In this document: positions 7,503 to 50,157 of the stretch, in pieces
How the letters are laid out: each line of letters opens with the position of its first letter
Position numbering within the stretch: the stretch's first letter is position 1
Origin: an uncultured Bacilli bacterium
GTDB taxonomy: Bacteria; Bacillota_I; Bacilli_A; RFN20; CAG-826
Length of the DNA: 64,000 nt
Reading direction: 5' to 3'
NCBI GenBank assembly: GCA_944363525.1
Contig: CALVUF010000001.1
Span: 1-64,000 of the forward strand
Made by a program: the position numbers and the translations under genes
Notes under the pieces: model-generated
The model's database searches: none
What the model saw: the letters and a program-made list of their open reading frames with translations, nothing else
Told to the model about the DNA's origin: nothing

Positions 7503-9769
7503 AGACATTTGCTTTAGCTGGGAACCCCAATTCTGGCAAATCGACCTTGTTCAATTCCTTGACTGGTTCCCGGGCTTATGTTGGGAACTGGCCCGGGGTC
7601 ACGGTCGAAAGAAAGGAGGGGACTTATCTCAATAAGAAGAAAAACCAGGAGGCCAAGATCATCGACCTCCCGGGCATTTATTCTTTGTCCCCTTATTCGC
7701 CTGAGGAAAGAATTGCCCGCGATTATCTTTTATCCGGGGAGCCCGACCTCGTCATCGCCGTCGTCGACTCGACCAACCTCGAACGGAACCTCTATCTGAC
7801 CCTCCAATTATTGGAGATGGATATCCCCGTCGTGGTGGCCCTTAACATGAGCGATGCCCTTGCTAAGCAAGGAAGGAGCATCGACGTCAAAGCCCTCTCC
7901 GATGGGCTCGGGGTCCCGGTCATATCGATATCGGCCCTCCAGTCCCATAACCTCGACGAATTGATGGCTTTGAGTTTGAAGGCCGCCGAGAAGAAACGGG
8001 TTGGTCAGACCGTCTTAAGCCATGAGCTCATCGCCAAGGCCAAGGATATTTACGCCGCCGAAGACGTCCCTTCGCCTTTGTTCCATGCCATCAAGGCCTT
8101 AGAGCAAGACGAAGTCGAGGAGAAAGACCATCCCGAGGCTTATAGGCAAGTGGGGGAATTAAGCGTAGACGATACCCTCTCCTCCACCTTCGCCGATGCC
8201 CGTTATCGTTTCCTTGAACCTTTGGTGAAGAAGTGCCTAAGCGGGAAGGAAACAAAAGCCAAAGAGAAGCTGAGTTTATCGGATAAGATCGATAAGGTCT
8301 TGACCAATAAGTGGGCCGCCCTCCCGATCATGGCCCTTATCATGTTCTTGATCTTCCATATCGTCTTTGGGACCGACTTGCTCTACATCGGGAGCATCTA
8401 TTCGGCCGCGACCGGGAATTCTTTGTTCGCCGAAGGATTCGGCGGGGTCGAGCTCATTATCGACGGGGAGACGTATCAGCCTTTCGCCGATCTCTTCTAT
8501 TCAACCGACGGGGTCAATAACCTCGGCGAGTTCCTCCATATGCTGGCCGGCGATAACGAGACCGGCATCCTGGGCTGTATATCGCTCGGCATTAAGCAGG
8601 GGCTAATCAACATCAATACCCCGACTTGGCTCGTCAATTTCCTTTATGACGGAGTCTTGGGTGGACTAGCGGCCGTCCTCGGCTTTGTGCCCCAGATCAT
8701 GCTCCTCTTCGTCTTTTTCTCTTTCTTGGAGGATTCGGGCTATATGGCCCGGGTCGCCTTCGTCTTAGACCGGATCTTCCGTCATTTCGGGGTCTCGGGG
8801 CGGGCGTTCCTCCCGATGATCATGGGATTTGGCTGCGCCATCCCGGCCATGATCAACACTCGGTCTTTATCCAGTGAGAAAGAGAAGATTAAGACCATCC
8901 GGGTCATCCCCTTCTTCACCTGCGGGGCCAAAGCCGAGTTCTTGGTCATCATCGCCGCGGTCATCGCTGGTATCGTCGGGGTCGATGCGGGTCTTTTCAC
9001 CTTCCTAACCTATGTCTTTGGGGTGGCGGTGGCTTTAATCGCCGTCATCGTTATGACTAAGACCACCTTAAAGGAAGAGGCGCCGCCCTTCATCATGGAA
9101 CTCCCTTCCTACCATCTTCCCCAACCGAAGGCCTTAGCCCTCCATGTCTTAGACAAAGGCGGCCACTTCATCAAGAAAGCCTTCACCATCATCTTTGCCT
9201 CGACCGTCATCATCTGGTTCTTGGCTAACTTCTCTTGGGACTATACCCCCATTTGGACCTTAGAGGGCGAAGCGGCCGAGACCAGCTCGATCCTCTATTC
9301 GCTTGGTAACTTGTTACAACCCTTATTCACCCCGATGGGCTTCGGGGTCCAGGCGGGGGACAATGGCTGGATCTACGCCGTCGCCTCGATCCAAGGGATC
9401 GTGGCCAAGGAGAACGTCGTCGCCACCGCCGAGTCGTTATCGGCCGTCGCCGGGTATGGCTCGTTTGCCGACTTTGCTCTTGCGAGCGGCATCTCGACCG
9501 CCGGCTTGGTCGGGTTCGCCGTCTTCAATATGCTGACCATTCCTTGCTTTGCTTCGGTCGCGACGGCCAAAGGGGAGTTAGGCAGCAAGAAAGCCTATAT
9601 CAATACCCTCTTGTTCTGGCTAGTCACGTCCTATGGCTTAGGGACTCTAGCTTACATCACCTGCGAATGGGTTTGGACCTTAGCCATTACCTTGCCCTGC
9701 CTCGCTGGCTTAATCGTCGGGCTCTACTTCTATAACCGCCCGAAGAAGATCAAGGAGGTGAACGCCTAG
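7499..9769 (+). CDS. feoB: Ferrous iron transporter FeoB
   Basis: The 756-aa membrane protein has an N-terminal G domain and a polytopic membrane domain, and it imports Fe2+. The G motifs are intact: GNPNSGKST (residues 8-16), DLPG (56-59) and NMSD (116-119). The membrane part holds two homologous gate regions around LGFVPQIMLLFVFFSFLEDSGYMARVAF and the later AKENVVATAESL segment, plus the conserved Cys-containing stretches FFTCGAK and LTIPCFASVATAK. Its length is normal for FeoB. Its ATG overlaps the upstream feoA stop, and its TAG shares a base with the next GTG start. Confidence 0.97.
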   Translation: MKTFALAGNPNSGKSTLFNSLTGSRAYVGNWPGVTVERKEGTYLNKKKNQEAKIIDLPGIYSLSPYSPEERIARDYLLSGEPDLVIAVVDSTNLERNLYLTLQLLEMDIPVVVALNMSDALAKQGRSIDVKALSDGLGVPVISISALQSHNLDELMALSLKAAEKKRVGQTVLSHELIAKAKDIYAAEDVPSPLFHAIKALEQDEVEEKDHPEAYRQVGELSVDDTLSSTFADARYRFLEPLVKKCLSGKETKAKEKLSLSDKIDKVLTNKWAALPIMALIMFLIFHIVFGTDLLYIGSIYSAATGNSLFAEGFGGVELIIDGETYQPFADLFYSTDGVNNLGEFLHMLAGDNETGILGCISLGIKQGLININTPTWLVNFLYDGVLGGLAAVLGFVPQIMLLFVFFSFLEDSGYMARVAFVLDRIFRHFGVSGRAFLPMIMGFGCAIPAMINTRSLSSEKEKIKTIRVIPFFTCGAKAEFLVIIAAVIAGIVGVDAGLFTFLTYVFGVAVALIAVIVMTKTTLKEEAPPFIMELPSYHLPQPKALALHVLDKGGHFIKKAFTIIFASTVIIWFLANFSWDYTPIWTLEGEAAETSSILYSLGNLLQPLFTPMGFGVQAGDNGWIYAVASIQGIVAKENVVATAESLSAVAGYGSFADFALASGISTAGLVGFAVFNMLTIPCFASVATAKGELGSKKAYINTLLFWLVTSYGLGTLAYITCEWVWTLAITLPCLAGLIVGLYFYNRPKKIKEVNA

Positions 9770-10005
9770 TGGATTTATCTTGGATCAGCTACGTCCTCTT
9801 GGCCTTGGTCCTCGGTTTCTTCCTCTTTGTCCTTATCAAAGGGATCATCAATAAATACCAGGGGAAGGGCGGCACTTGTTGCTGCTCTTCCTCAAAAGGG
9901 AAGAAGCTGGTCAAGCAGTTCCATAAGCTAAAGAAGCAAGAGGCGAAATGCCCGTATTGTCAAAATGGAGAAAGCCACCTTAATAAGGGCGATGCTCTCG
10001 ATTAA
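9769..10005 (+). CDS. FeoB-associated Cys-rich membrane protein
   Basis: This 78-aa protein has a single N-terminal transmembrane helix, followed by a Gly/Lys linker with a CCC cluster (GGTCCCSSSKG) and a CPYC motif near the C terminus. This matches the small Cys-rich proteins encoded after feoB in many Bacillota, thought to assist FeoB or handle iron at the membrane. It uses a GTG start that shares one base with the feoB stop codon. Confidence 0.85.
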   Translation: MDLSWISYVLLALVLGFFLFVLIKGIINKYQGKGGTCCCSSSKGKKLVKQFHKLKKQEAKCPYCQNGESHLNKGDALD

Positions 10006-10312
10006 GCCCAACCTTGATAAGCGGGGCTATTTCACCAGTAAGTCCTTGGCTTATTCGCTTAAAGTCTCAAAAGCCCGGACCTCGGTCATCGTCTCCTCCC
10101 TAATCGCGGAAGGCTATTGCGCCAAAGCCGGGACCCGGGATCTGATCTTGACGGAGAAAGGGTCAGCCAAAATGGCGGAGATCGAAGAGGATTTGACTAA
10201 ACTCAGCCTAGCCCTCGATTCCCTTTCCCTTCCCCAAAAGAAAGAAGTGAGCGGCTTACTTTACACCTATGGGTCAATGAGGATCCTTGAGCAATTGCTT
10301 AAAGGAAAATGA
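9965..10312 (+). CDS. Small winged-helix DNA-binding protein at the end of the feo operon
   Basis: The product is a 115-aa protein with a MarR/DtxR-like helix-turn-helix: SLAYSLKVSKARTSVIVSSLIAEGYC, then a wing TRDLILTEKGSAKMAEI, then a helical tail. It overlaps the previous gene by 41 nt. A later ATG at 9992 is an alternative start that would shorten the overlap. Its position at the end of feoAAB suggests an iron-responsive repressor or a FeoC-like accessory protein. No metal ligands are obvious, so the role is inferred from context. Confidence 0.7.
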   Translation: MEKATLIRAMLSIKPNLDKRGYFTSKSLAYSLKVSKARTSVIVSSLIAEGYCAKAGTRDLILTEKGSAKMAEIEEDLTKLSLALDSLSLPQKKEVSGLLYTYGSMRILEQLLKGK

Positions 10313-10321
10313 AAGTTGGTC

Positions 10322-10327
10322 TATAAT
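10322..10327 (+). promoter_or_regulatory. -10 box of the tRNA-Arg gene
   Basis: A consensus TATAAT lies 8 nt before the tRNA 5' end. No good -35 is seen at the right distance. Confidence 0.5.
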
Positions 10328-10335
10328 CTAGCGGC

Positions 10336-10412
10336 GCGCCGGTAGCGCAACTGGATAGAGCACCAGACTTCGAATCTGGGGGTTACGGGTTCGAGTCCTG
10401 TCCGGCGCGCCA
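10336..10412 (+). tRNA. tRNA-Arg (anticodon TCG)
   Basis: The 77-nt cloverleaf has the acceptor stem GCGCCGG / CCGGCGC, a D arm GCGC / GAGC, the anticodon stem CCAGA / TCTGG around loop CTTCGAA (anticodon TCG), a T arm ACGGG / CCTGT with loop TTCGAGT, discriminator G and an encoded CCA end. It should read CGA and other CGN codons. Confidence 0.95.
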
Positions 10413-10427
10413 TTAACAAGGTAAAAG

Positions 10428-10449
10428 CGCCCGAGCAATCGGGCGTTTT
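10428..10449 (+). terminator. Terminator after tRNA-Arg
   Basis: The stem CGCCCGA / TCGGGCG with a 4-nt loop and a TTTT tail lies 15 nt after the tRNA. I see nothing convincing between it and 10680. Confidence 0.8.
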
Positions 10450-10693
10450 CTTTATCCAATCATGAATCCATGTTCTTGGGTATCGGTTTTGAAGCCCCCT
10501 ATTCCAAAGAGGCGATTTGTTGGCTTTGGGCAGCTGTTAAAAGGCGTTTCCATAGCTTTGACCCAGGGGATTATCACCCTTTGGTGCAGGGATTCTTGGC
10601 TTCGGCGGTTTGCCAAATTTAACGTTTGTTTCTAGAATATTCCTATCCGGATGTCTAGCCAAGGCATCACTAAAAAGCAGAAGGAGAAGGGAA

Positions 10694-11224
10694 ATGATCG
10701 ATATCGGCGATGAAACCGCGATTGATGGCCTTCAATATAAGGTCTTGAAGCTGCTTGGCCATGGCAAAGGCGGCTATTCTTATTTATCGACGGCTGATAA
10801 CCGACAATATGTTTTGAAGCAGATCCACCATGAGCCTTGCTCTTACTATAATTTCGGCAACAAGATCGAAGCCGAGCTGCATGACTACCAACGGCTGTCG
10901 CAGACGGGGATCCGGATTCCGAAGATGATCGCGGTCGATAAGGAAAAAGAAGTGATCGTCAAAGAGTATATCGATGGCCCGGTTCTCTCTGAACTTATCA
11001 AATCCCATCAAGAGGTGGATGCCTACATCGAGCAGATGAAGGCGATGCTCCCGGCCATCTATGGCGCTGGGCTCAACATCGACTACTATCCGACGAACTT
11101 CATCGTCAATAAGCAAGACGGCCTGCTTTATTACATCGACTATGAATGTAACCTCTATGATCCGAAGTGGGATTTCGAGCATTGGGGAATTAATTACTGG
11201 AATGGCCAAGAGGCTATAAATTAG
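10694..11224 (+). CDS. Small protein kinase-fold protein
   Basis: This 176-aa minimal kinase-like protein has the key elements in order: a Gly-rich loop GHGKGG (22-27), the ATP-binding Lys in YVLK (K42), a catalytic loop NIDYYPTN (D130, N135) and a metal-binding IDYE (D149). The layout fits the RIO/aminoglycoside-phosphotransferase branch rather than classical Ser/Thr kinases. The substrate is unknown. ATG 10694 is preceded by AAGGAGAAGGG, so the 28 upstream in-frame codons are not included. It sits just downstream of the tRNA at the edge of accessory DNA and has no obvious partner. Confidence 0.7.
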   Translation: MIDIGDETAIDGLQYKVLKLLGHGKGGYSYLSTADNRQYVLKQIHHEPCSYYNFGNKIEAELHDYQRLSQTGIRIPKMIAVDKEKEVIVKEYIDGPVLSELIKSHQEVDAYIEQMKAMLPAIYGAGLNIDYYPTNFIVNKQDGLLYYIDYECNLYDPKWDFEHWGINYWNGQEAIN

Positions 11225-11977
11225 ATATCGAGACAATAGGCGTCGGCGAGCGCTTGCGGTCATCTTTTTCTAAAGTTAATCAAGGGGACGCGGTTTCCGC
11301 TGAAATAGAAGTGGCTATTAATCGTATTAATTCGGTTAATGCCAAACTTGTTTTTAAACCTAGGTATAAACAAGTTGAAGGGATAACCGATGAAAAGACC
11401 AATGATATCCCCATCATCCGCGAAGTCCTGCAATAAGCGATACATAACTCCGCTGCCAATTGGGGGTCTCGATGGAGACGCCGAACAATCGGAAGTTCTC
11501 CCAAAGCGGCATGTGGGAATCCCAAAACATGGGGAAGATGTATTTGTCCGGGGCTTTCGGTGGTAATCCCTTTATACAAGTCCGTCGATTAATGCATTTA
11601 AAGAGCAAAACCAACTCGAACTGCGGGGGCTACTCAAGGGTCACCATGGGTATAACTTCCCTTTCCCGTATATTTTCCATGCCATTTTGCCTAAAGGGTA
11701 TGACCAAAAAAGGGGGGGAGAGCCCGACGGACTGCTATTTATCCTGCTTACGGCAGGCGGAAAGGATGAACTTCCGTAACTTAGCCTTCTGTTCCATCTC
11801 GACCGGGGTCTAAGGGAGGAGGCGGCGCCTTTGGCTCTTTAATTGACCAGGGAATACCTCAAGATCAGTTCCTTGGAATTGGCAGTCTTCGTCGCCTATA
11901 GCGATTATAACGCCCGGGTTTATGGTGATTCGCTACGTTATTTAGAGGAAAAGGAATGGTTTTTGCAGGAAAAATGA
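11225..11977 (+). pseudogene. Decayed gene of unknown family
   Basis: Protein-like sequence is broken by stops and at least one frameshift. From about 11470 one frame gives coherent segments (ELRGLLKGHHGYNFPFPYIF, then LTREYLKISSLELAVFVAY and RYLEEKEWFLQEK) interrupted by in-frame stops. The last stop is TGA 11975-11977. A piece at 11254-11436 in another frame (SAEIEVAINRINSVNAKLVF) may be the N-terminal part. I could not identify the family. The 77-bp repeat begins three bases after its stop codon. Confidence 0.5.
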
Positions 11978-11979
11978 GG

Positions 11980-12056
11980 TACTTCACACTGAGTGAAGTG
12001 AAGTGTGAAGTAAGAGTGAAGTAAAACTTCATTCTGAAATTTTAAGAGTGAAGTAA
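11980..12056. repeat. 77-bp direct repeat, copy 1, upstream of AlbA_2 gene
   Basis: It is built of GTGAAGT / ACTTCAC units. It contains the inverted repeat ACTTCAC-N5-GTGAAGT and the palindrome TGAAGT-AAA-ACTTCA (12017-12031), and it ends inside a second copy of that palindrome (12049-12063). It matches 13589-13665 at 76 of 77 positions. The second palindrome overlaps the -35 of the downstream gene, so an operator role is likely. Confidence 0.9.
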
Positions 12057-12059
12057 AAC

Positions 12060-12088
12060 TTCATTGCGGATTAAAATCGGCATATAAT
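12060..12088 (+). promoter_or_regulatory. Promoter of AlbA_2 gene, -35 embedded in a palindrome
   Basis: TTCATT (12060-12065), a 17-nt spacer and a consensus TATAAT (12083-12088). The -35 is part of the TGAAGT-AAA-ACTTCA palindrome, which suggests repression by a protein bound there, perhaps the gene product itself. Confidence 0.5.
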
Positions 12089-12118
12089 TAAGCGCGAAAG
12101 GAACTGTTTTCAGCAAGT

Positions 12119-13585
12119 ATGGTCATTCAAGAATTGGTGCCGGGGGTTAACCTGGAAGATTACACAACCGAGTTTAAGGCGCGGATTGCCGAGGGCCCTT
12201 CGGCCAAAAGCGGCGAAAGGCTAGAAAATACCTGGTTAAAGACCATTGTCGCCTTTGCCAATTCCGGCCCTGGCGATCTTTACATTGGGGTCGACGATAA
12301 GACCCACGAAATTCAGTCCCTTAGTCACGAAGAGGCCGACACCATTCATTTGATGATCCAACGCTTATCTCAAGAACGGATTACCCCAGAACCTCATATT
12401 GTTTATTCGGCTATACCCGTTCCCTCGACCCAACCGACCCGTTATGTTTTGAAAGTCCATGTCGAGAAATCCACGTTTCCTTTGGTGAGCCTTAAAGAAG
12501 GCAATGCCCGGTCCATCTATTTCCGCGACTTCGGCCGCGATTCCTTGGCGACCCCGGAGCAGATGGTCGAGATGGTGCATCAAAGCTCATATGTCTCCTA
12601 TGATGACCGTTATCTTGAGATTAAATACCGGAAAGAAGATTTCCGCGCTTTCAACGAATATTATGCCAAAGTCCGGGGCGAGGAATTGAGGGAGAAGACG
12701 TTGATGGGGAAGAACCTTATCGACAAAGAGGGACATCTATCGGTTGGCTTTGATATGTTCAGGGATGATTACCAAAGCCCAAAAACATTGGTTGAGTGTA
12801 CTTGGTTCCGCGGGTACGATGCCGGCGACAGCGTTTTCCTCGCCTCGAAGCGAATCCAAGGCAATCTGCTTTATGAGTTTCAGCAAATTGCCGAGTTCAT
12901 TAAGTCGCGGACGGCCAACGGGATTGAAAAAAGCGGACTTACCCGTATTGATTACGTCGCTTATCCCGACGAGGCTTTGAATGAAGCAATCGCCAATGCC
13001 TTGGGCCATCGGAACTATTTCATCAATGGATCGCAGATCTCAATAAACGTTTTCAAAGATCGGGCGGAATTCATCTCTCCTGGCGATTTGATAGGCCAAT
13101 CGCGTGAACTCCATCAATTCAAAGATCTCGGCTCTTTGCCGCCAGTTAGGCGAAACGATCTAATCTGCGAGGCGTTCTGCTTATTGAGGCTGATGGACCG
13201 GTTGGGGACGGGGTTCGATAAGATCCTCGACGTCTATCGTCCATATGGAGATAAATTCGCCCCCTTCGTCAATTCGGGCAACCAGTCTTTTTGTCTAACT
13301 TTGCCTGACCTAACCCATGAGAACGGGCTCTATGCCTATAATGATGAGCCAGCGATCGAACTGAACCCGTCGGTGAAAGGGAAATACGATAGTATCATCC
13401 TTTCGTATTGCTATAAACAGGCGCGGACCGCCAAGGAAATCGCTGAACGAATCGGCATCGGCCCAACTTCCTATTTTAGAGATAACATCTTGGGCCGGTT
13501 GGTCAATGAGGGATATTTGCTTAAAATCGAGTCAGAGTATCCCGCCAAGTTCTACGCCAATCGGACTAAGGTAACGCTGAAATAG
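12119..13585 (+). CDS. AlbA_2 (Schlafen-type) / HATPase regulator, copy A
   Basis: The 488-aa protein has an N-terminal AlbA_2 domain (EFKARI, then WLKTIVAFANSGPGDLYIGV), a central segment, and a RecG-like HATPase_c_4 region from about residue 283 (NEAIANALGHRNYFINGSQI, EFISPGDL, RLMDRLGTGFDKI). A C-terminal winged helix follows (TAKEIAERIGIGPTSYFRD). This architecture is usually annotated as an ATP-binding or RNA/DNA-binding putative transcriptional regulator. It is a full-length paralogue of the gene at 48477-49952 and lies between two almost identical 77-bp repeats. There is no good Shine-Dalgarno at ATG 12119; AAAGGA is about 17 nt away. Confidence 0.85.
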   Translation: MVIQELVPGVNLEDYTTEFKARIAEGPSAKSGERLENTWLKTIVAFANSGPGDLYIGVDDKTHEIQSLSHEEADTIHLMIQRLSQERITPEPHIVYSAIPVPSTQPTRYVLKVHVEKSTFPLVSLKEGNARSIYFRDFGRDSLATPEQMVEMVHQSSYVSYDDRYLEIKYRKEDFRAFNEYYAKVRGEELREKTLMGKNLIDKEGHLSVGFDMFRDDYQSPKTLVECTWFRGYDAGDSVFLASKRIQGNLLYEFQQIAEFIKSRTANGIEKSGLTRIDYVAYPDEALNEAIANALGHRNYFINGSQISINVFKDRAEFISPGDLIGQSRELHQFKDLGSLPPVRRNDLICEAFCLLRLMDRLGTGFDKILDVYRPYGDKFAPFVNSGNQSFCLTLPDLTHENGLYAYNDEPAIELNPSVKGKYDSIILSYCYKQARTAKEIAERIGIGPTSYFRDNILGRLVNEGYLLKIESEYPAKFYANRTKVTLK

Positions 13586-13588
13586 GAC

Positions 13589-13665
13589 TACTTCACACTG
13601 AGTGAAGTGAAGTGTGAAGTAAGAGTGAAGTAAAACTTCATTCTGAAATTTAAAGAGTGAAGTAA
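13589..13665. repeat. 77-bp direct repeat, copy 2, downstream of AlbA_2 gene
   Basis: It is identical to 11980-12056 except for one base and begins three bases after the stop codon of the AlbA_2 gene. No gene starts close downstream, so this copy is not an ordinary promoter operator. Confidence 0.9.
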
Positions 13666-13777
13666 CACCAATCCTCATCAAGTTAGAGGCCAGTAGGTGA
13701 TAGGAGATCAGTCCCATAAGAAAGCAGGGTGTCCGAGGTGAAAACATCGAGAATCCAGCATGGGGATTAACCGGTTT

Positions 13778-13931
13778 CCAAAAACCGGAATGAAAGGCCA
13801 TCAAAAACCGGAAGCATGATTGATTATAGGCTAGTTTTCATCGATATGATTAATGTATATATTCGATAAAATCTATCTAATTTGGCAAAATCATCAAAAA
13901 TCGGAATGGAACGCCATCAGAAACCGGAATG
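13778..13931. repeat. Paired CCGGAATG repeats upstream of a DUF4143-type ATPase
   Basis: Two imperfect 36-bp copies lie at 13778-13814 and 13893-13931. Each contains two AAA(C/T)CGGAA motifs spaced 23 bp apart around GCCATCA. A short inverted repeat CCGGTTT / AAACCGG overlaps the first copy. The region 13666-14026 holds no other gene. The repeats lie just upstream of a TATAAT at 13976-13981. Confidence 0.75.
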
Positions 13932-13975
13932 ACCGATAAACCTATATAAACATTCATATTCAAAACTATTTAACA

Positions 13976-13981
13976 TATAAT
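13976..13981 (+). promoter_or_regulatory. -10 box of the ATPase gene
   Basis: TATAAT lies between the repeats and the coding frame. Transcription would start near 13988, which coincides with an in-frame ATT. Confidence 0.45.
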
Positions 13982-14026
13982 TAGTTTATTAACGTTGAAT
14001 ACCGACCGCGTTTAGCCGAGAAGACC

Positions 14027-15274
14027 TTGACGAGGAAACTGAGAACATCGGGGTGCGTCTTGCTTCAGGGACCGAGGCAAGTAGGCAAGCAAACCTTCGT
14101 CCGGCAATTCGTCAAATCCCAATTTCTTTTGGATTCCCCTAATGCGATGGCCCTTGCCCAAGCCGATCCCCGATCCGTGCTTAAAGGCGAGGCCCCTCGG
14201 TTGATCGGCGAATGGCAAAAAGCACCCGACATTTGGAATCATATCAAGGCTACGTTGGATGATGATTTCCAGTTTGGCCGATTCATCCTAACTGGCAGCA
14301 CGACCCCGGTTGATCCTAAGTGCATTCTCCATTCTGGGACGGGGCGCTTCTCGCGGATGACCCTCTATCCCTTTTCGCTTTTCGAATCGGGCGAATCGAA
14401 TGGGCATGTCTCACTCGGGTCGCTATTGGAGTCTCCGCATATCGAGCCGTTGCTGGCGGCTGATAACCATATTGTATTGAAGGATATCGCCTATCTTATT
14501 TGCCGGGGCGGCTGGCCGTTATCGCTCTTGACGGAGAAGGAGGACGCCATCGACGTGACGAGGAATTACTACGATGGGCTCTTCGTCGCCGAGGATGAAA
14601 ACGATGAATACTCCGATTTCTTCAAAAGCAAAGATGTCGATCTGCTGGAGATAATCCTCAAAGGCTTCGCCCGCAATATCTCGACTCCGGCGAAGAAAAG
14701 CCGAATGATCGCCTCGATTTTGGAGTCCGGCCGGCGAAGCACCTTAGACGAGAAGACGTGCGACGCGTATTACAAGACGTTGAAGGATCTGTTCATCGTT
14801 TATGAATTGCTTCCTTGGAACGCCAATATCCGTTCCTCGGTGATGATCCGCCAATCCCCGGTTTATCACTTCTTCGATCCGTCGATTGCCGCCGCATCCC
14901 TCCGCCTTTCGCCGGCCCGCTTGGTGAAGGATCTGCACTCGCTCGGACTATTCTTTGAGGACTTGGCGATCCGAGACTTGACCATCTATGCCGAAGCCAT
15001 TGGGGCCGACGTCTCTTATTACCGGGATTCCAGCGGGCTAGAGGTTGATGCCATTGTCACTTTTCCTGACGGGGATTACGGCGCGGTCGAGATCAAGGTC
15101 GCCGGGGATGATTCCCTGACTCGAGGCCGGAAATCGCTTTTATCATTTGAAAAGAAGATGAGGGAAAACGGCAATCCGACCCCCGCCTTCAAAATGATTT
15201 TGACTAGCCATGGGGCCTGTTACCAAGGGGCGGACGGAATCTATGTGGTGCCCATCAATTGCCTGCGGCCTTGA
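14027..15274 (+). CDS. DUF4143-type AAA ATPase (COG1373-like), probably ATPase-deficient
   Basis: The protein is 415 aa from TTG 14027. Homology of the N terminus (YRPRLAEKTL in frame from 14000) suggests the true start is upstream, but the only candidate before the stop at 13982 is ATT 13988. Residues 15-23 read GPRQVGKQT, where the usual Ser/Thr after Lys is Gln. The Walker B region reads LIGEWQKAP, where family members have LIDEWQ. The C-terminal half has the DUF4143 nuclease-like fold (GLEVDAIVTFPDGDYGAVEIK). ATP hydrolysis is doubtful. These ATPases are widespread accessory genes of unclear function. Confidence 0.8.
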   Translation: MTRKLRTSGCVLLQGPRQVGKQTFVRQFVKSQFLLDSPNAMALAQADPRSVLKGEAPRLIGEWQKAPDIWNHIKATLDDDFQFGRFILTGSTTPVDPKCILHSGTGRFSRMTLYPFSLFESGESNGHVSLGSLLESPHIEPLLAADNHIVLKDIAYLICRGGWPLSLLTEKEDAIDVTRNYYDGLFVAEDENDEYSDFFKSKDVDLLEIILKGFARNISTPAKKSRMIASILESGRRSTLDEKTCDAYYKTLKDLFIVYELLPWNANIRSSVMIRQSPVYHFFDPSIAAASLRLSPARLVKDLHSLGLFFEDLAIRDLTIYAEAIGADVSYYRDSSGLEVDAIVTFPDGDYGAVEIKVAGDDSLTRGRKSLLSFEKKMRENGNPTPAFKMILTSHGACYQGADGIYVVPINCLRP

Positions 15275-15355
15275 AGGCAAGGCGTTTCCCTAAGGCGAGC
15301 AATTTGATTCGCGGAATTCCTGGTTTTCTGATTTGGGTCTGCAATTTAAGAGAGT

Positions 15356-16297
15356 TCAGAGTCCCATTGAATCGAGTTTGCTGCCGATTTGCTCCATTGT
15401 CTTTAACGCTTCTTCAAAGGAAGGGAACTTATCAAAGAAAGACATGCTATGCATGATCGACTCGTAGCCCTTTCGAACATCGCGATCGAGTTTCTCTTTC
15501 CAACTGGAATAAGCATAGGGCCCGGTCGGGTCATAGCCTTGTTCGCCCCATTCGGAATGACGCTTAACGTAATAGGCGTCGGACTCCTTGCTTAAGGCGA
15601 TGAGCGATTTCAATTCTTCAGGATTGGCGAACAGGTTCATGATGTCGGGATGCTTCATCATCAAGGTGACGTCATTGAGGTGGCGGGAATTGATGGAGAG
15701 TTTCCCAATGTAGGCATAACGCTTGATGGCCAAAAGCTTATCGAGGAAGGTCCGTTTGATGGAGGTGACGTTGATCGTTACCTCTTTCAAGCCATATTGC
15801 TCGATTTCTTTATCTAGCCCCCGTTGCTCCATGAACTCCTGGATATAGGATTTGATGGGACGCGGGGAGTAGGGGATGGAATTGGAGAAAGAACCGATAT
15901 CGAGCTTGATTGGGTCAACGCCTTCGATAAGAAGGTCGCTGCTTTTATGACGGGGATAACGTTTATGGATGTCCTTTTGGAAGGTGGTCCCTTCAATGTT
16001 GGACAAGATCGTTTCAATCTCCTTGATGTTCCGGCTGCACTGCCCGTTGGATAAAGCCGAGCCTAAGTAATTGAGGTCGACGTCTTCCGAGAAGCGGTCA
16101 ATCGAACCGGGATAGCCTTTGCTTAAGGACGTGCCGCCTTTGAAGACGCAGTCATTGGCGAAAGGGGAGGCGGCGAGGTTCGAAAGCATTTTGACGATGT
16201 AGTAGTCGCGTTTGATTTGGTCGGGGTCGATGCCGATCAGGGTCGAGGTTTCGCGGGCGTAGTACTCAAAAGATGACGGGTTTAGATGCAGATTCAT
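15356..16297 (-). CDS. abiEii: AbiEii-type nucleotidyltransferase toxin
   Basis: The 313-aa protein belongs to the AbiEii/AbiGii toxin family, with the nucleotidyltransferase motif GGTSLSK (54-60) and the metal-binding FSEDVDL (69-75). Members of this family modify tRNA or otherwise block growth in type IV toxin-antitoxin and abortive phage infection systems. ATG 16297 has GGAGG 7 nt upstream; the longer frame to 16351 lies inside the antitoxin gene. It overlaps the antitoxin by 32 nt, so the two are translationally linked. Confidence 0.9.
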   Translation of the reverse strand: MNLHLNPSSFEYYARETSTLIGIDPDQIKRDYYIVKMLSNLAASPFANDCVFKGGTSLSKGYPGSIDRFSEDVDLNYLGSALSNGQCSRNIKEIETILSNIEGTTFQKDIHKRYPRHKSSDLLIEGVDPIKLDIGSFSNSIPYSPRPIKSYIQEFMEQRGLDKEIEQYGLKEVTINVTSIKRTFLDKLLAIKRYAYIGKLSINSRHLNDVTLMMKHPDIMNLFANPEELKSLIALSKESDAYYVKRHSEWGEQGYDPTGPYAYSSWKEKLDRDVRKGYESIMHSMSFFDKFPSFEEALKTMEQIGSKLDSMGL

Positions 16298-16979
16298 TGA
16301 TGTCCTCCATTTTAGGTATGTCGTAAAACGAATATTCGCTGAGGTACTCATTGAGCTCGTTTTTGATGTTGTAGAAGTTCAGCAGGTTCCTAAGGAAGGC
16401 GATGGTGCTTTTCTTGTAACGTCGTTTCTTCAATAGCTTAGCCAGGACTTTTTCGTCAAAGGATTCGGCGACGGTCTTCGAATAATCCATAAAGGCTCCT
16501 TCGTCGAGGCCGGGGATTTCTTTGTAGTGTTCCAATACTTCTAAAGCCGAGAGGGTATCGATGGTCGGCTTATCGAATTTGACTTTGAGGCGATAGGCGG
16601 TGCACTTCCCGATTTGCTTTTTGTCCTCATCGATCCTGGAGGTTAGGTATTCCCGTCTAAAGGGAACTTGAGTCGTGAGACCGAGCTTATTGTAGAGGGC
16701 ATAGCCGACTGGCATCCCCGATTCATCACCGGTCAACGATTTCTCAATGCCCTGGAGCTTGATGGGGAAAGACTGATCCCCAACGGTGTAGGGGAAGTAG
16801 TAAACGCCCCGGGCGGCCTTGGATAAGGTCCCATCCTCAACCAGCCGCTCCAAGCACTTATAGTAGGTCAATTCATTGACCCGCCCTTCCAGCCGTTTAC
16901 GGTATAAGGCGGAGGCGAAGATCAACTCCTCGACCGCGAACTTCTTCAGCTCGTTTTTGACAATCTGCATCTGGCTCAT
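16266..16979 (-). CDS. abiEi: AbiEi-like antitoxin / transcriptional regulator
   Basis: The 237-aa protein has an N-terminal winged helix (FASALYRKRLEGRVNELTYYKCLERLVEDG, then GVYYFP wing) and a C-terminal domain typical of AbiEi-like antitoxins. It is encoded directly before AbiEii. ATG 16979 is chosen because AAGGAAGGGG lies 8 nt upstream; TTG 16985 is an alternative. The antitoxin probably represses the shared promoter, which carries a tandem ACTTGAC repeat. Confidence 0.85.
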   Translation of the reverse strand: MSQMQIVKNELKKFAVEELIFASALYRKRLEGRVNELTYYKCLERLVEDGTLSKAARGVYYFPYTVGDQSFPIKLQGIEKSLTGDESGMPVGYALYNKLGLTTQVPFRREYLTSRIDEDKKQIGKCTAYRLKVKFDKPTIDTLSALEVLEHYKEIPGLDEGAFMDYSKTVAESFDEKVLAKLLKKRRYKKSTIAFLRNLLNFYNIKNELNEYLSEYSFYDIPKMEDINESASKPVIF

Positions 16980-17006
16980 TTGCAATCCCCTTCCTTTGTT
17001 ACCTAA

Positions 17007-17034
17007 ACTATAATGGCTTAAGTCAAGTTGTCAA
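17007..17034 (-). promoter_or_regulatory. Promoter of the abiE pair
   Basis: On the minus strand TTGACA (17034-17029), a 16-nt spacer and TATAGT (17012-17007). The -35 is part of a direct repeat ACTTGACA-ACTTGACT, a possible AbiEi binding site. Confidence 0.6.
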
Positions 17035-17287
17035 GTGCCGTAAGGGTGCACTTTTGTAAAATTGTGAATCTAGCAAAGATATGATTAGGGCGGTCATCGT
17101 CTTCAAAAACCATACAAAACAGAATTCGATACTTGCAAATTCAAGGTAATTTCGGAGGAATTGCCCAAAAGCGCCGATCCCTCTTGGCCTTTATTAATCG
17201 CGCCTCTTATAAAGACCAAGATAAAACACTTAATCTATAAGAGTCGATAACAAATGTCGAAAACAATCAGGAAATACGTATAGGCGA

Positions 17288-18163
17288 TTATAGGTAAGTC
17301 GGATAGATGTAATACTCTTCCCCGAATAGCCCGGGGCAATAGGCGACCTCGACCGAATCCCCGATTTGCAAACTAACGTAAATCGACTTGGGGATGGCGA
17401 TGGAGCAATAGCCTTCATCGCTTCTAAAGCTTAGAGAGTAATAGCCACGGGTCCGAACGCGGTTAATGTATTTCAAGTCGGTGATGGTCACGGTTTGGTA
17501 TTGGGGTTCGGCGTAATCGAAGGCGACGTTGAGGGAGGAGATGCCGCACCAAGCGTAGGCAAAGCCGAGGATCAAGCCGGCCAAGGCCCAGCCGGTTACC
17601 CTGGCCCAAAGGGGGTTCTTGGCTTTCTTAGGCGTCCGTCTTTGCTTTAGCCAATAGCCGAGCCCGGTTGCCCCCATCGCCACGATGGCGATGATTAAGG
17701 AGGGGAACCAAAACGGGAAATCGGTTATGTATCCGACCTTCGAGTTGAAGCTTATTCCGGGCAATAGGGCTAGCAGGGCCGGGCAATCGACGAAGAGGAA
17801 GAGCTCGGCATCGGTGGATTTGAATACGATCCGGAAGAATAGGGTTATCGCCCCGCCGAACAAGGCGAAGAAGAAACTGCTGATGATGAAAACCTTGCTC
17901 GATACCAAGAAGGGGAAATAGCTGATCCCGAAGGTGAAGATAAGGAGATAAATGATTAAACCCCAATGGAGTTGGGGGCGGCGGAAGAAGATTAGAATCA
18001 AGAAAGCGAGGCAAAGGAAGGAACGGGTTAGAAGGTTCCCGTTTAACGAAGACAGAAAGGCGTTGTGATTGCCGGCGATATCCAGGGCTAAAGTCAGGAT
18101 CAGCAAAGCCACGAACCCAGTGTAACGGGTGTAATCGATCCAAGGACGCTTCGGCTTTCTCAT
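17288..18163 (-). CDS. Multi-pass membrane protein of unknown function
   Basis: The 291-aa protein has about seven hydrophobic helices in the first 220 residues. A soluble C-terminal beta-rich segment follows (YQTVTITDLKYINRVR, IPKSIYVSLQIGDSVEVAYC). No family is recognised. ATG 18163 has no Shine-Dalgarno, and a TATAGT ends 9 nt before it on the minus strand, so the mRNA may be nearly leaderless. It is divergent from the HipA-like kinase gene; their 97-nt shared upstream region holds both promoters. Confidence 0.7.
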   Translation of the reverse strand: MRKPKRPWIDYTRYTGFVALLILTLALDIAGNHNAFLSSLNGNLLTRSFLCLAFLILIFFRRPQLHWGLIIYLLIFTFGISYFPFLVSSKVFIISSFFFALFGGAITLFFRIVFKSTDAELFLFVDCPALLALLPGISFNSKVGYITDFPFWFPSLIIAIVAMGATGLGYWLKQRRTPKKAKNPLWARVTGWALAGLILGFAYAWCGISSLNVAFDYAEPQYQTVTITDLKYINRVRTRGYYSLSFRSDEGYCSIAIPKSIYVSLQIGDSVEVAYCPGLFGEEYYIYPTYL

Positions 18164-18225
18164 CGATCAACACTATACAGGAAAACGAGAATACTTGTTG
18201 TTGCAAAAACCGTAAAGATATCCTA

Positions 18226-18254
18226 TTGCAAATAGATATTAGTTTGAGTATCAT
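18226..18254 (+). promoter_or_regulatory. Promoter and palindrome of the HipA-like pair
   Basis: TTGCAA (18226-18231), a 17-nt spacer and TATCAT (18249-18254). ATG 18261 lies where transcription should begin. The inverted repeat ATCCTAT / ATAGGAT frames the promoter, and a TATC-N12-GATA palindrome covers the -35, resembling the TATCC-type operators of HipB proteins. Confidence 0.5.
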
Positions 18255-18260
18255 AGGATT

Positions 18261-19127
18261 ATGAAAATAATCAATTTCGACAAATGTTCCTTAAGCGGTC
18301 GCTATTACGGAGGTTCCGAAAAAAAGCTGGGTATACTTTACGAAGGCGCACCGTATATGCTTAAGTTTCAAAAAGAAACGCCGTTTGGTTTACGGTTCAA
18401 CCATATCTCCGAGTACCTAGGTTCGCACATTTACGGCTTGCTTGGTTTTGACTGCCAAGTGACACTACTTGGGACATTGGATAGCAGATTCGTTGTTGCC
18501 TGTAAGGATTTTACAACAAATGATTCTACGTTCGTACCCTTCAATGATGTAGGGGAATCGGCCATCGAAGAGGATAAGACTAAATTCCAATATTCTTATT
18601 CCGATATTTTAAAAATGCTTAGAGCTAACAAAAAGCTGACCGACGTTCAAACTACCGTCTCTTGCTTCTTCGACATCTATATTGTTGATGCCTTCCTTGG
18701 CAACTTCGATCGCCACGGAGGCAATTGGGGGTTCTTAAAGCGCGATAATCATTATTCGCTTGCCCCGGTCTTCGACAATGGTTCCTGCCTGTTCCCAGCG
18801 ATGATTGATGAGGAGATGATGGCAAAGATAATCGGAGATGAAACCGAAATAGACAAAAGGGTTTACGAATTTCCGACTTCACAGATTAAATTGCGGGGGC
18901 GGAAGAGCTCTTATTTTCAAGTGATTAATTCTTTGGCGTTTCCTGAAATCAACGCCTCTTTGAAAAGAATTTACCCTCTTATTGATTTGAAAGAGATTTT
19001 CTCTCTTGTCGATGATATCCCTATAATCAGTGATATCCACAAATGTTTCTATAAAACGATGATCCAATCGCGTTACGAAAAGATCCTTCAAACCTCTTAT
19101 CGCAAATTGATGGAAAGGCAGCCATGA
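18261..19127 (+). CDS. HipA-like kinase toxin (HipT-like)
   Basis: The 288-aa kinase lacks the HipA N-terminal subdomain. Kinase residues are in place: YMLKF (K35), the catalytic motif LGNFDRHGGNWGFL (D150, N155) and the metal-binding APVFDNGS (D172). HipA-family toxins phosphorylate aminoacyl-tRNA synthetases and arrest growth; that this one does so is inference. Its stop overlaps the ATG of the next gene (ATGA), so the two proteins are made together. There is no Shine-Dalgarno; the start codon lies at the expected transcription start. Confidence 0.8.
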   Translation: MKIINFDKCSLSGRYYGGSEKKLGILYEGAPYMLKFQKETPFGLRFNHISEYLGSHIYGLLGFDCQVTLLGTLDSRFVVACKDFTTNDSTFVPFNDVGESAIEEDKTKFQYSYSDILKMLRANKKLTDVQTTVSCFFDIYIVDAFLGNFDRHGGNWGFLKRDNHYSLAPVFDNGSCLFPAMIDEEMMAKIIGDETEIDKRVYEFPTSQIKLRGRKSSYFQVINSLAFPEINASLKRIYPLIDLKEIFSLVDDIPIISDIHKCFYKTMIQSRYEKILQTSYRKLMERQP

Positions 19128-19903
19128 AGTCATATCATTCAGAAGGAATTATCTGCATAAAGGACCGATACGGTATCGAGTATCGGGTCTGTCATCTTGC
19201 CTATACCCTGAACGAGGACGAGACCTTTGAATATGTCTTTACCCCGAATTATTCGGTCATCGATCTAACCGATGCTTCCTTTTTCCAAGGCATCCCCGGA
19301 CTAAACCTTGATTTAAGGCGGAAGCAATATGTCCGGAGCAATATGGTTCCCTGTTTTATCTCGGAAAGAGTTCCCCAGACGAACCGAGTGGATTATTACG
19401 AACTGCTTGAGGAAGTGGGGATGACTTACATGGATCCACTTCTCTATTTAATCCGAACCGACAAGGTTTATTTTGGAGACCGCTTCTACATGATTCCCAT
19501 CGAAGCGAAGAAGACAGTCGATTTCGATTCTTCTTCAAGAAGACTCAATTCCATTAGCTGCATCCGATTGATCCTTTCTTCCTTGGCGGCCGGCGATGAT
19601 CTCTTGCTTGGCGAATATAAGATCGACGATTCAACTCGGATGCCGGTTTTTCGGGTTGTCCATTCTCTTTACGCGCGTTCGGTCGCAGCTTGGAAAGCCG
19701 CTCAGGAAGAAGGGGTAGCCCAAGCCCGTTCCAGCGGAAAGTACCATGGACGGAAGCCGGTTCCTTTCGATACGGTGAAATTCCATCTACTCTTAGGCCG
19801 GGTAGAGCGGAAAGAAATGAGCGTTAAGCAGGCGGCTGGGGAACTGGGCATCTCCACCGATAAGTTCTACCGGGAAAAACGGAAACTGGAGAAGGGAAAA
19901 TAG
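19124..19903 (+). CDS. HipA N-subdomain-like protein fused to a resolvase-type HTH
   Basis: The 259-aa protein has an N-terminal part resembling the HipA N-subdomain that HipS proteins correspond to (FFQGIPGLNLDLRRKQY, ISERVPQTNRVDYYELLEEV, MDPLLYLI). The C terminus carries a linker rich in basic residues and a Hin/resolvase-like HTH (MSVKQAAGELGISTDKFYRE). It follows the kinase gene with a 4-nt overlap. The likely role is an antitoxin that both holds the kinase and binds the promoter, so that one protein does the work of HipS and HipB. This reading is inference from domain layout. Confidence 0.6.
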   Translation: MKSYHSEGIICIKDRYGIEYRVCHLAYTLNEDETFEYVFTPNYSVIDLTDASFFQGIPGLNLDLRRKQYVRSNMVPCFISERVPQTNRVDYYELLEEVGMTYMDPLLYLIRTDKVYFGDRFYMIPIEAKKTVDFDSSSRRLNSISCIRLILSSLAAGDDLLLGEYKIDDSTRMPVFRVVHSLYARSVAAWKAAQEEGVAQARSSGKYHGRKPVPFDTVKFHLLLGRVERKEMSVKQAAGELGISTDKFYREKRKLEKGK

Positions 19904-20048
19904 GGGCAATTTTTGCCCGAAATCAATTTTGTTTCGGCCCAGTTTTCGACCTGTAATTTCTCTGGTTGACGAAGACTATAAGTAGAATATCGCAATCATT
20001 CAAACCTCCGATTTAATCGGGCTTTTGGGTTCGAATGTGGCGAACTGT

Positions 20049-20143
20049 ATCTGGGGAATCGGCGGAATATCGGGGTTGGAGTCGGAAGTTTGTGAGGATT
20101 TGCATCGGAAGAATGTAAGGGTTTCAACCACTGACATTCCGAC
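20049..20143. repeat. Scattered TCGGAA motifs in a 316-nt gene-free stretch
   Basis: Between 19904 and 20219 there is no gene. The stretch holds several TCGGAA / GGAATCGG motifs and one inverse ATTCCGA (20135-20143). They resemble the CGGAATG units upstream of the ATPase at 14027 and precede another ATPase gene here. Confidence 0.4.
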
Positions 20144-48476: not shown

Positions 48477-49952
48477 TTATTCGATTCGGGGCTTCGGAAA
48501 CACTTTTTTCTTGTTTGCGATATATTTTTCCGGTCGCCCGTTTGTGCGGATTAAATATTCTTTGGCAATCAGCGGTTCCAACATGTTTTTTCGGAAATAG
48601 GTCGAGGCGGATAAACCGAGGCTCGACGCCAGTTCCGCTGCGGATTTTGGACCGTTATAGCAAAGGGCCAATATCTTTTCGCCGAACTTGTCATCCAAGA
48701 GGCCGTCGACGTAGATTTCAATCTCCGTTTCCCCCTCGGGTGTCGTCAAGGCATTGTACGTTATATCTGGCAAAACCAGCGAAAAGAAGGCATTGGTGGA
48801 AGTGATATACGGTTGGTACTTCGGATCGAAATTGGAATAGTCGTTTATGATTTTCGTGAATCCGGAACCCCTTTTCTCGATGTAATTAATGGATCGGCAA
48901 ACATTGCATACGACATCGTTTCTTCTGGTCGGGATGATGCTGCCAATATTCTTTTCTTTCTGCAGTCGGGTGCCGCTGACGAGGCTTCCGGGCGAGGTTA
49001 TTTCTAATCGATCCAAGAATACGTTGATTTCGATTTGCGAACCGTTAATCCAATAATCGCGGTGGCAAATGGCGTTCATGACTCCCTCGAAAACCGATCT
49101 TTGGGGGTAAGAAAAGTATTTGGTTCGGCCGGTTGGAAGCTTCTTATAGCCGTTATTGGAATGCGACTGGACGAAAGCCAGGCAAAAGGCGACGGCATCG
49201 ATTATGTTTCCGTTAAAGGTGTCGGTGGCGGTTACGATATCGCTGCCCTTGTCGAGGCCGGGCCACTTGGTGGCGACGATGAGGTTTGAATCGTCATGAT
49301 AATCGTCTTTGAACATCAGCGCTCCCCGGCTCAGATGTTTTCCCTTATCCATGAAGCCCATTGATTGCAGGGCTTTTTCGGTTAAGTGGCAATTGTTTTC
49401 TTTGTAGTATTCGCGGTCCAACTTAACGAAATCATCAGGGTTGTATACGTATTCGGTGGGCTGCTCGTCATAACGGATGTCGGATTGCGATAGGAAAAGG
49501 CTCCGAAGCTCTTCTTGGGAACAAGCTTCGGTGGCTCCGAAGTGCCTTATGTAGTAAGCGACCAAGCCGCGTGTTTTCAACCCGACCGGAAGATTTTTGC
49601 TTCGGGACACCTTGACCTCAATGACATATCGGGTTGCCTCCCCTTCGTTTTTAATTGGCAAAGCTGCGATATCGTAAGGCAAAGACGGAACTATTTTCTG
49701 CTTGATCAGGCGATGGATCATCTGGATGGTTTTGTCAGCCGCGACATGGTCTAGCGATAAAACTTTATGGGTTTTGTCCTCAACGCCAACATAGAGACTC
49801 CCGCCTTGGGAATTAGCAAAGCCAACCAGCGTCTTTAGCCAATTATCTTCCTTAGGCATGCCGTCAGCCGTTTTTCCTTCCTCTATAAGGCCTTTGAATT
49901 CGGTTTGACCGTCTTCGAGATTTATATTCGGTAACAAATCTTCAATGAGCAT
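48477..49952 (-). CDS. AlbA_2 (Schlafen-type) / HATPase regulator, copy B
   Basis: The 491-aa paralogue of the gene at 12119 aligns over its length. It has an AlbA_2 domain (EFKGLIEEG, WLKTLVGFANSQGGSLYVGV), a RecG-like HATPase region (FEGVMNAICHRDYWINGSQI, EITSPGSL, YIEKRGSGFTKII) and a C-terminal winged helix (SAAELASSLGLSASTYFRK). The two genes keep the same domain order but differ clearly in sequence, so the duplication is old. It lies between two copies of an iteron array, the upstream one directly before its promoter. AGAGGG precedes the ATG. Confidence 0.85.
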   Translation of the reverse strand: MLIEDLLPNINLEDGQTEFKGLIEEGKTADGMPKEDNWLKTLVGFANSQGGSLYVGVEDKTHKVLSLDHVAADKTIQMIHRLIKQKIVPSLPYDIAALPIKNEGEATRYVIEVKVSRSKNLPVGLKTRGLVAYYIRHFGATEACSQEELRSLFLSQSDIRYDEQPTEYVYNPDDFVKLDREYYKENNCHLTEKALQSMGFMDKGKHLSRGALMFKDDYHDDSNLIVATKWPGLDKGSDIVTATDTFNGNIIDAVAFCLAFVQSHSNNGYKKLPTGRTKYFSYPQRSVFEGVMNAICHRDYWINGSQIEINVFLDRLEITSPGSLVSGTRLQKEKNIGSIIPTRRNDVVCNVCRSINYIEKRGSGFTKIINDYSNFDPKYQPYITSTNAFFSLVLPDITYNALTTPEGETEIEIYVDGLLDDKFGEKILALCYNGPKSAAELASSLGLSASTYFRKNMLEPLIAKEYLIRTNGRPEKYIANKKKVFPKPRIE

Positions 49953-50000: not shown

Positions 50001-50006
50001 ATATTT

Positions 50007-50072
50007 ACTTCGCCAACTTCGCTATTCACTTCTCTTTACTTCACAACTACTTCACGATACTTCACTAACTTC
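50007..50072. repeat. Iteron array upstream of AlbA_2 copy B, seven ACTTC units
   Basis: Units start at 50007, 50016, 50028, 50038, 50049, 50059 and 50068. The mean spacing is close to one helical turn, so all units face the same side of the DNA. The same units (complement GAAGT) make up the 77-bp repeats around AlbA_2 copy A. Confidence 0.9.
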
Positions 50073-50157
50073 GAGTTAAGTTGGGGTGGAATTAAGGATC
50101 CAAACCGAGCGGACTGGCAATGGGGCAGAAGGCCTTCGACCCCAGGCGGTTAATTAA

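Follow-up and report, generated by a model that had tools for sequence, protein, structure and literature searches.

A protein that joins a Schlafen RNase, a minimal histidine kinase and a winged helix-turn-helix (wHTH) domain (COG2865) is described, in the passages of PMC12839542 that concern it, as BREX-linked in at least 1017 taxa. As presented in those passages, it has the same domain order as the protein analysed here: AlbA_2, GHKL/HATPase, and wHTH. The two differ in setting, with the COG2865 protein linked to BREX and the focal gene standing alone, outside a BREX operon. The Schlafen/AlbA passages of PMC12839542 mention no arrays, flanking repeats or empty sites. In the open-access papers searched more widely, we found no account of family arrays, downstream duplication, one-array empty sites, or a correspondence between helix and unit. 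The protein type is already known, and it is for the arrays and their behaviour that no description was found in open-access papers.

Several well-known arrangements resemble the focal locus in part. In solo LTRs and direct-repeat deletions, one copy of a repeat likewise remains and the interior is removed; in contrast to an LTR, however, the focal repeat is a short putative operator array with no transposon end, reverse transcriptase, integrase, or target duplication. In attL/attR integration (including Xer-exploiting elements) and in integron cassettes, the empty state likewise has a single site and the occupied state two direct copies, and integron cassettes likewise consist of one gene plus one site each. 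The focal cassette differs from these integrase elements in that it has no integrase, its units vary per locus and match its own HTH, and no tandem cassettes were seen.

The focal gene and its flanking repeat

The window—the whole 64,000-nucleotide stretch of DNA that was analysed, from an uncultured Bacilli bacterium—contains a gene placed between an upstream (U) and a downstream (D) copy of a 77-bp array of GAAGT units, as well as a paralog of that gene. The features are as follows:

11980 to 12056, + strand: U copy of the 77-bp GAAGT array; array-like sequence continues to 12064
12060 to 12088, + strand: putative promoter, read from the sequence, with −35 TTCATT at 12060–12065, a 17-bp spacer, and −10 TATAAT at 12083–12088
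12119 to 13585, + strand: gene for the 488-aa Schlafen AlbA_2 / GHKL ATPase / wHTH protein
12155 to 12529, + strand: AlbA_2 (Schlafen/SAMD9 nuclease-type) domain, residues 13–137, from Pfam, conserved residues, and the structure model
13028 to 13303, + strand: HATPase_c_4 (GHKL) region, residues 304–395, from Pfam and the structure model
13361 to 13582, + strand: C-terminal winged helix-turn-helix, residues 415–488, from the model; array unit and residue 449 vary together
13589 to 13665, + strand: D copy of the array, beginning 3 bp past the stop codon
48266 to 48341, − strand: downstream array of the paralog, about 135–211 bp past its stop codon
48477 to 49952, − strand: second family member, a paralog of 38% identity, between two arrays
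50002 to 50077, − strand: upstream array of the paralog

The original prediction, which drew on the bare sequence, had described 76 of 77 identical bases flanking one gene. The repeat search bears this out: the 77-bp cores differ at one base, and the longer stretches 11980–12059 and 13589–13668 are identical at 78 of 80 positions. Both copies begin three bases past a stop codon (TGA at 11975–11977 for U, and TAG at 13583–13585 for D), as had been stated. U and D align with a local score of 74, whereas the highest of 167 control comparisons reached 27, and the 1.57-Mb genome holds no further copy of the 77-bp repeat beyond these two. Palindromes had also been noted in the upstream copy, one of them over the −35; two TGAAGT-AAA-ACTTCA palindromes are indeed present in the U copy region, and the second (~12050–12064) overlaps the weak −35 TTCATT, which lies 17 bp from the perfect TATAAT of the focal gene. 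This promoter is a by-eye reading, and a strict consensus scan omits it because of the poor −35. That the downstream copy lacks a nearby gene to regulate was likewise correct, as the next + strand ORF begins near 14027.

The focal protein matches SLFN_AlbA_2 (PF04326) over residues 13–137 (6.2e-16) and HATPase_c_4 (PF13749) over residues 304–395 (1.4e-14) in Pfam, and SLFN5 in profile comparison (2e-9). An AlphaFold2 model built on an alignment of 46 family members has a mean pLDDT of 90.6. Within this model, residues 1–130 resemble the nuclease-type domains of Schlafen and SAMD9 proteins at a Z of about 10, and residues 415–488 form a MarR/ArsR-like winged helix. The whole model matches 3lmm (DIP2311 of Corynebacterium diphtheriae) with a Z of 21 and an rmsd of 14.3, an rmsd which means that the likeness to DIP2311 holds domain by domain. 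No recombinase or transposase domain was found in the protein by Pfam or in the structure model, and for this protein PADLOC gave weak pAgo-accessory matches only.

Schlafen active sites contain two acidic residues five apart, the same spacing as E13 and E18 of the focal protein. Across 46 sequences, E13 never varies and E18 is kept in at least 90%, whereas conservation of the third acidic residue of the Schlafen-type site is not clear in the family alignment. On residue spacing, E13 and E18 may form a nuclease active site, and the protein is predicted to be a tRNA-cutting defence protein.

Arrays and promoters across the family

Homologs were taken from genomes of the genus and order, plus 80 loci from a species-wide genome collection that include Bacillota, Treponema, Coriobacteriaceae, and Flexilinea. 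When an array was called as three or more GAAGT units within 200 bp, 81 of 99 unique homologs had one upstream, compared with 1 of 86 control stretches from the same loci. The homologs with upstream arrays span Bacillota, Spirochaetota, Chloroflexota, and Actinomycetota. Most of the homologs that fell short of this threshold use other units, for example GTAGT, ACAAGT/ATAAGT, GGTGTCA, TTTGGGGAA, and TGGTGGTC, and each paralog has its own array unit; three loci (L016, L017, and L041) combine a different recognition helix with the ACAAGT/ATAAGT unit. The original prediction had noted neither the spread of the arrangement through the family nor the units particular to each paralog. When 279 genomes from the order were scanned by pattern, the TGAAGT array gave ~100 matches and the backward version of a second pattern, TAGTGA, gave ~4. 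TAGTGA itself matched other real arrays, those of a distant AlbA_2 gene and of Fic genes, and reversal of TGAAGT was void as a control, since it is the same sequence backwards.

Matches on plasmids of E. coli, Klebsiella, Yersinia, and Pseudomonas were set aside because they belong to TrlF/BREX-type operons, in which the relatives are shorter and no array lies between the genes. Phage and viral collections yielded distant relatives only, and no viral contig with a typical three-unit array.

A good sigma-70 promoter is present at 47 of the 81 array loci, against 4.9 in shuffled sequence; array units lie over the promoter in 44 of those 47, and the spacer is nearly always 17 bp. Among GAAGT-type loci, the two bases before GAAGT track residue 449 of the protein, which immediately precedes the recognition-helix S-S/T-Y: Asp or Asn occurs with TT (53 loci), Pro or Ala with GT (15 loci), and Val with TA (three loci). 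Column 449 was chosen by eye; a scan of all alignment columns ranked it first as a predictor of the unit's 5′ end, and as kinship raises the mutual information of every column, only this rank is informative. From the winged helix, the promoters within arrays, and the covariation at residue 449, we infer that the protein binds its array and represses its own promoter. Regulation by the gene's own product, one of the two roles originally suggested for the repeat, has thereby gained support as predicted binding.

A flanking direct repeat scoring above all 167 controls occurs at 25 of 98 loci, and in these double-array loci the D copy mostly starts 0–15 bp past the stop codon. D copies are concentrated in Bacilli on the protein tree, on which their presence changes at least 13 times, nine of these changes being forced by strongly supported branches; the arrangement has thus been gained or lost on many occasions, each time in the same layout. 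They resemble the U copy of their own locus and not one common ancestor. About three-quarters of homologs have no D copy, which suggests that it is unnecessary for the basic work of the protein; one such homolog is the S4 paralog (G000:C5), which lies in a variable region.

Empty sites and solo arrays

An empty allele with a single copy of the repeat had been predicted for related genomes, and it was found in two of them. In the sister species G028, the pattern scan of the 279 genomes located the focal array with the gene absent, in a region syntenic with window positions 9150–20134: the left flank, one 77-bp array, and the right flank follow one another. This solo array matches the U copy at 77 of 77 positions, and the nearest flanks match at 388 of 462 (84%). 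The focal site of the more distant G009 also holds one array (71/76; flanks 331/445) and no gene. One array and no gene were found in both G028 and G009 at the site of the window paralog (48477–49952) and at an ACAAGT-type site (G000:C7), and at a site beside tRNA-Leu (G000:C4) G028 has one array without a gene and G009 keeps the gene. At all four sites, the empty state has a single repeat and the occupied state two, the flanks being joined through one array, in genomes that are MAG-like drafts, one per species, in which a mixture of alleles within a population could be hidden. That the repeat should occur here only, with an empty-site allele nowhere, is not the case, and the one-array empty sites—focal and three paralogous—strengthen the part of the original prediction that saw the gene and its repeat as a cassette.

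About 12–14 further solo arrays were found in related genomes, typically between ordinary genes (ezrA, trkH, and a thioesterase gene), and in most of the genomes concerned no family gene was detected. At least one of these arrays, in G232, lies inside an ORF and may be due to chance. Upstream of ezrA in G172 (L186:3660–4010), two arrays separated by 157 bp enclose no gene; the orthologous sites in the sister species G161 and G177 are array-free, that is, naive. An apparently array-free naive state at the tRNA-Leu site (G013 and G014) was not accepted, as the regions end near a contig edge.

Explanations for the arrangement

On balance, the array is probably the operator of a self-repressing Schlafen-type defence gene, and duplication of this operator would make the gene exactly removable. 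The C-terminal winged helix would bind the GAAGT units and cover the promoter. Duplication of the operator directly behind the stop codon would turn array plus gene into a unit between direct repeats, and recombination between the arrays—at its simplest, by host homologous recombination or replication slippage—would remove the gene exactly and leave a single intact array, a solo array comparable to a solo LTR. Allelic exchange, or recombination at this remaining array, may then restore the occupied state. Homologous recombination is probably the removal pathway. Against this explanation stand the parsimony reading of three sites as gains, the lack of a D copy in three-quarters of homologs, and a nuclease assignment based on residue spacing.

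It is doubtful that the cassette mobilises itself, with the array as an attachment site, a circle of array plus gene that excises and reinserts into solo arrays, and the AlbA_2/GHKL protein pairing the arrays while a host or other enzyme exchanges strands. Similarly doubtful is that the arrays are operator and attachment site in one for a one-gene mobile defence cassette, the protein promoting exact excision and reinsertion of array plus gene and the solo arrays of gene-free genomes serving as docking sites for a cassette. Across many unrelated loci the D copy directly adjoins the stop codon, as would be expected of an exact array-plus-gene element, and D copies have appeared independently and repeatedly; solo arrays are already in place in relatives at sites where G000 alone has the gene, and they are found in genomes without any family gene. 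Set against self-mobilisation, however, are the lack of a recombinase or transposase domain in the protein, the presence of an upstream array only as the fixed state of most homologs, and arrays in gene-less relatives that are too conserved for idle targets and fit recent loss. Insertion by dedicated recombination at the repeat, which had been proposed from the sequence, has so far found no support: the recombinase domain is missing, and array conservation and, at one site, the occupied outgroup fit ordinary direct-repeat recombination at least as well.

A vertically inherited array–gene–array unit, maintained by concerted evolution after an ancestral duplication, with both arrays functional (as a gene loop or double operator) and the empty sites as occasional deletions, would account for the tRNA-Leu site, where G000 and G009 agree at 54 of 55 U positions and 42 of 44 D positions, against 80% identity for the gene and 82%–90% for the flanks. 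It would also account for loci L015 and L028, whose arrays are almost identical at 75% gene identity. This history is nevertheless improbable given the 9–13 or more changes in D status on the tree and the match of D copies to the U copy of their own locus rather than to a common ancestor. Hardly credible, finally, is that the arrays are MITE-like or terminator-like repeats flanking the gene by chance; they do hold hairpins, with terminator-like matches on the minus strand at both copies (no more than in shuffles), and the ezrA site of G172 has two arrays and no gene, but upstream arrays in 81 of 99 homologs across four phyla, units that track the recognition helix, and promoters within arrays speak against chance.

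Gain or loss of the gene

At three of the four sites, G000 alone has the gene and both G028 and G009 are solo. With G009 as outgroup, parsimony alone favours gain in G000 at these three and, at the remaining site, loss in G028. A functionless array should, however, diverge like its flanks, so the conserved array of G028 argues for loss there. The only homolog left in G028 (L007, G028:C2:281717–283168) has lost its upstream array, kept the downstream one, and carries Ala in place of E18, which reads as if the system had been discarded recently in the G028 lineage. The left flanks of the two solo alleles at G000:C7, in G028 and in G009, are near-identical to each other and unlike that of G000, and alleles thus also seem to move between species. 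We favour exit through recombination between arrays and return through allelic exchange or solo-array recombination, and claim no dedicated enzyme.

The edges of transferred DNA were also considered. Homology between L015 and L028 appears to end at the array, an observation dropped as proof of mobility because unconstrained flanks are unalignable at 75% identity. For L014 and L027, which are 97% identical in different surroundings, the edges fall beyond the arrays, by ~50 bp on the upstream side and ~110 bp on the downstream side, and arrays are thus not always the limits of transferred DNA.

Neighbouring genes and other arrays

An AbiEii/AbiEi-type pair (window 15356–16985; PADLOC and Pfam) adjoins the cassette, and the PADLOC candidate PDC-S01 also neighbours the focal gene. 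Upstream, window positions 11224–11977 hold the remnant of a gene with a Macro-domain match, broken in the focal genome; at the same place in G028 (L182 4366–5169), a 267-aa ORF ends just before the array. Repeats of AAAAACCGGAATGAAAGGCCATC at 13756–13929 precede an AAA_14/DUF4143 gene (14027–15274) and are possibly that gene's own operator array; the equivalent position in G028 (L182 5362–5563) holds additional copies.

Autorepressed toxin-type Fic/DOC genes likewise have short units, at ~11-bp spacing, before the gene. At six loci (L323, L324, L325, L327, L333, and L336), arrays of 11-bp units (TAGTGAAAAAA) precede Fic/DOC-family genes of 349–362 aa; these loci differ from the focal family in that just one of the Fic proteins examined has an HTH match, a weak C-terminal one, and no downstream array was found after the Fic genes. 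At L323:1780–3780, the Fic-type array region occurs as two direct copies, at least 125 bp long and similar by eye, with an AAA_14/DUF4143 gene between them. In the distant AlbA_2 gene L330 the units are TAGTGACATTTA, and unit arrays before such genes may be a wider theme.

Significance for bacterial Schlafens

Bacterial Schlafens are newly recognised relatives of human antiviral tRNA nucleases. In this family, the putative target site can be read from DNA, each protein has its own putative operator array and one helix residue tracks the unit, and the family offers ready protein/DNA pairs for a recognition code. A duplicated operator would make the gene exactly removable and leave a datable scar, giving a handle on the rates at which defence genes are gained and lost. 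The arrangement may thus represent a type of one-gene cassette that annotation pipelines leave unmarked.
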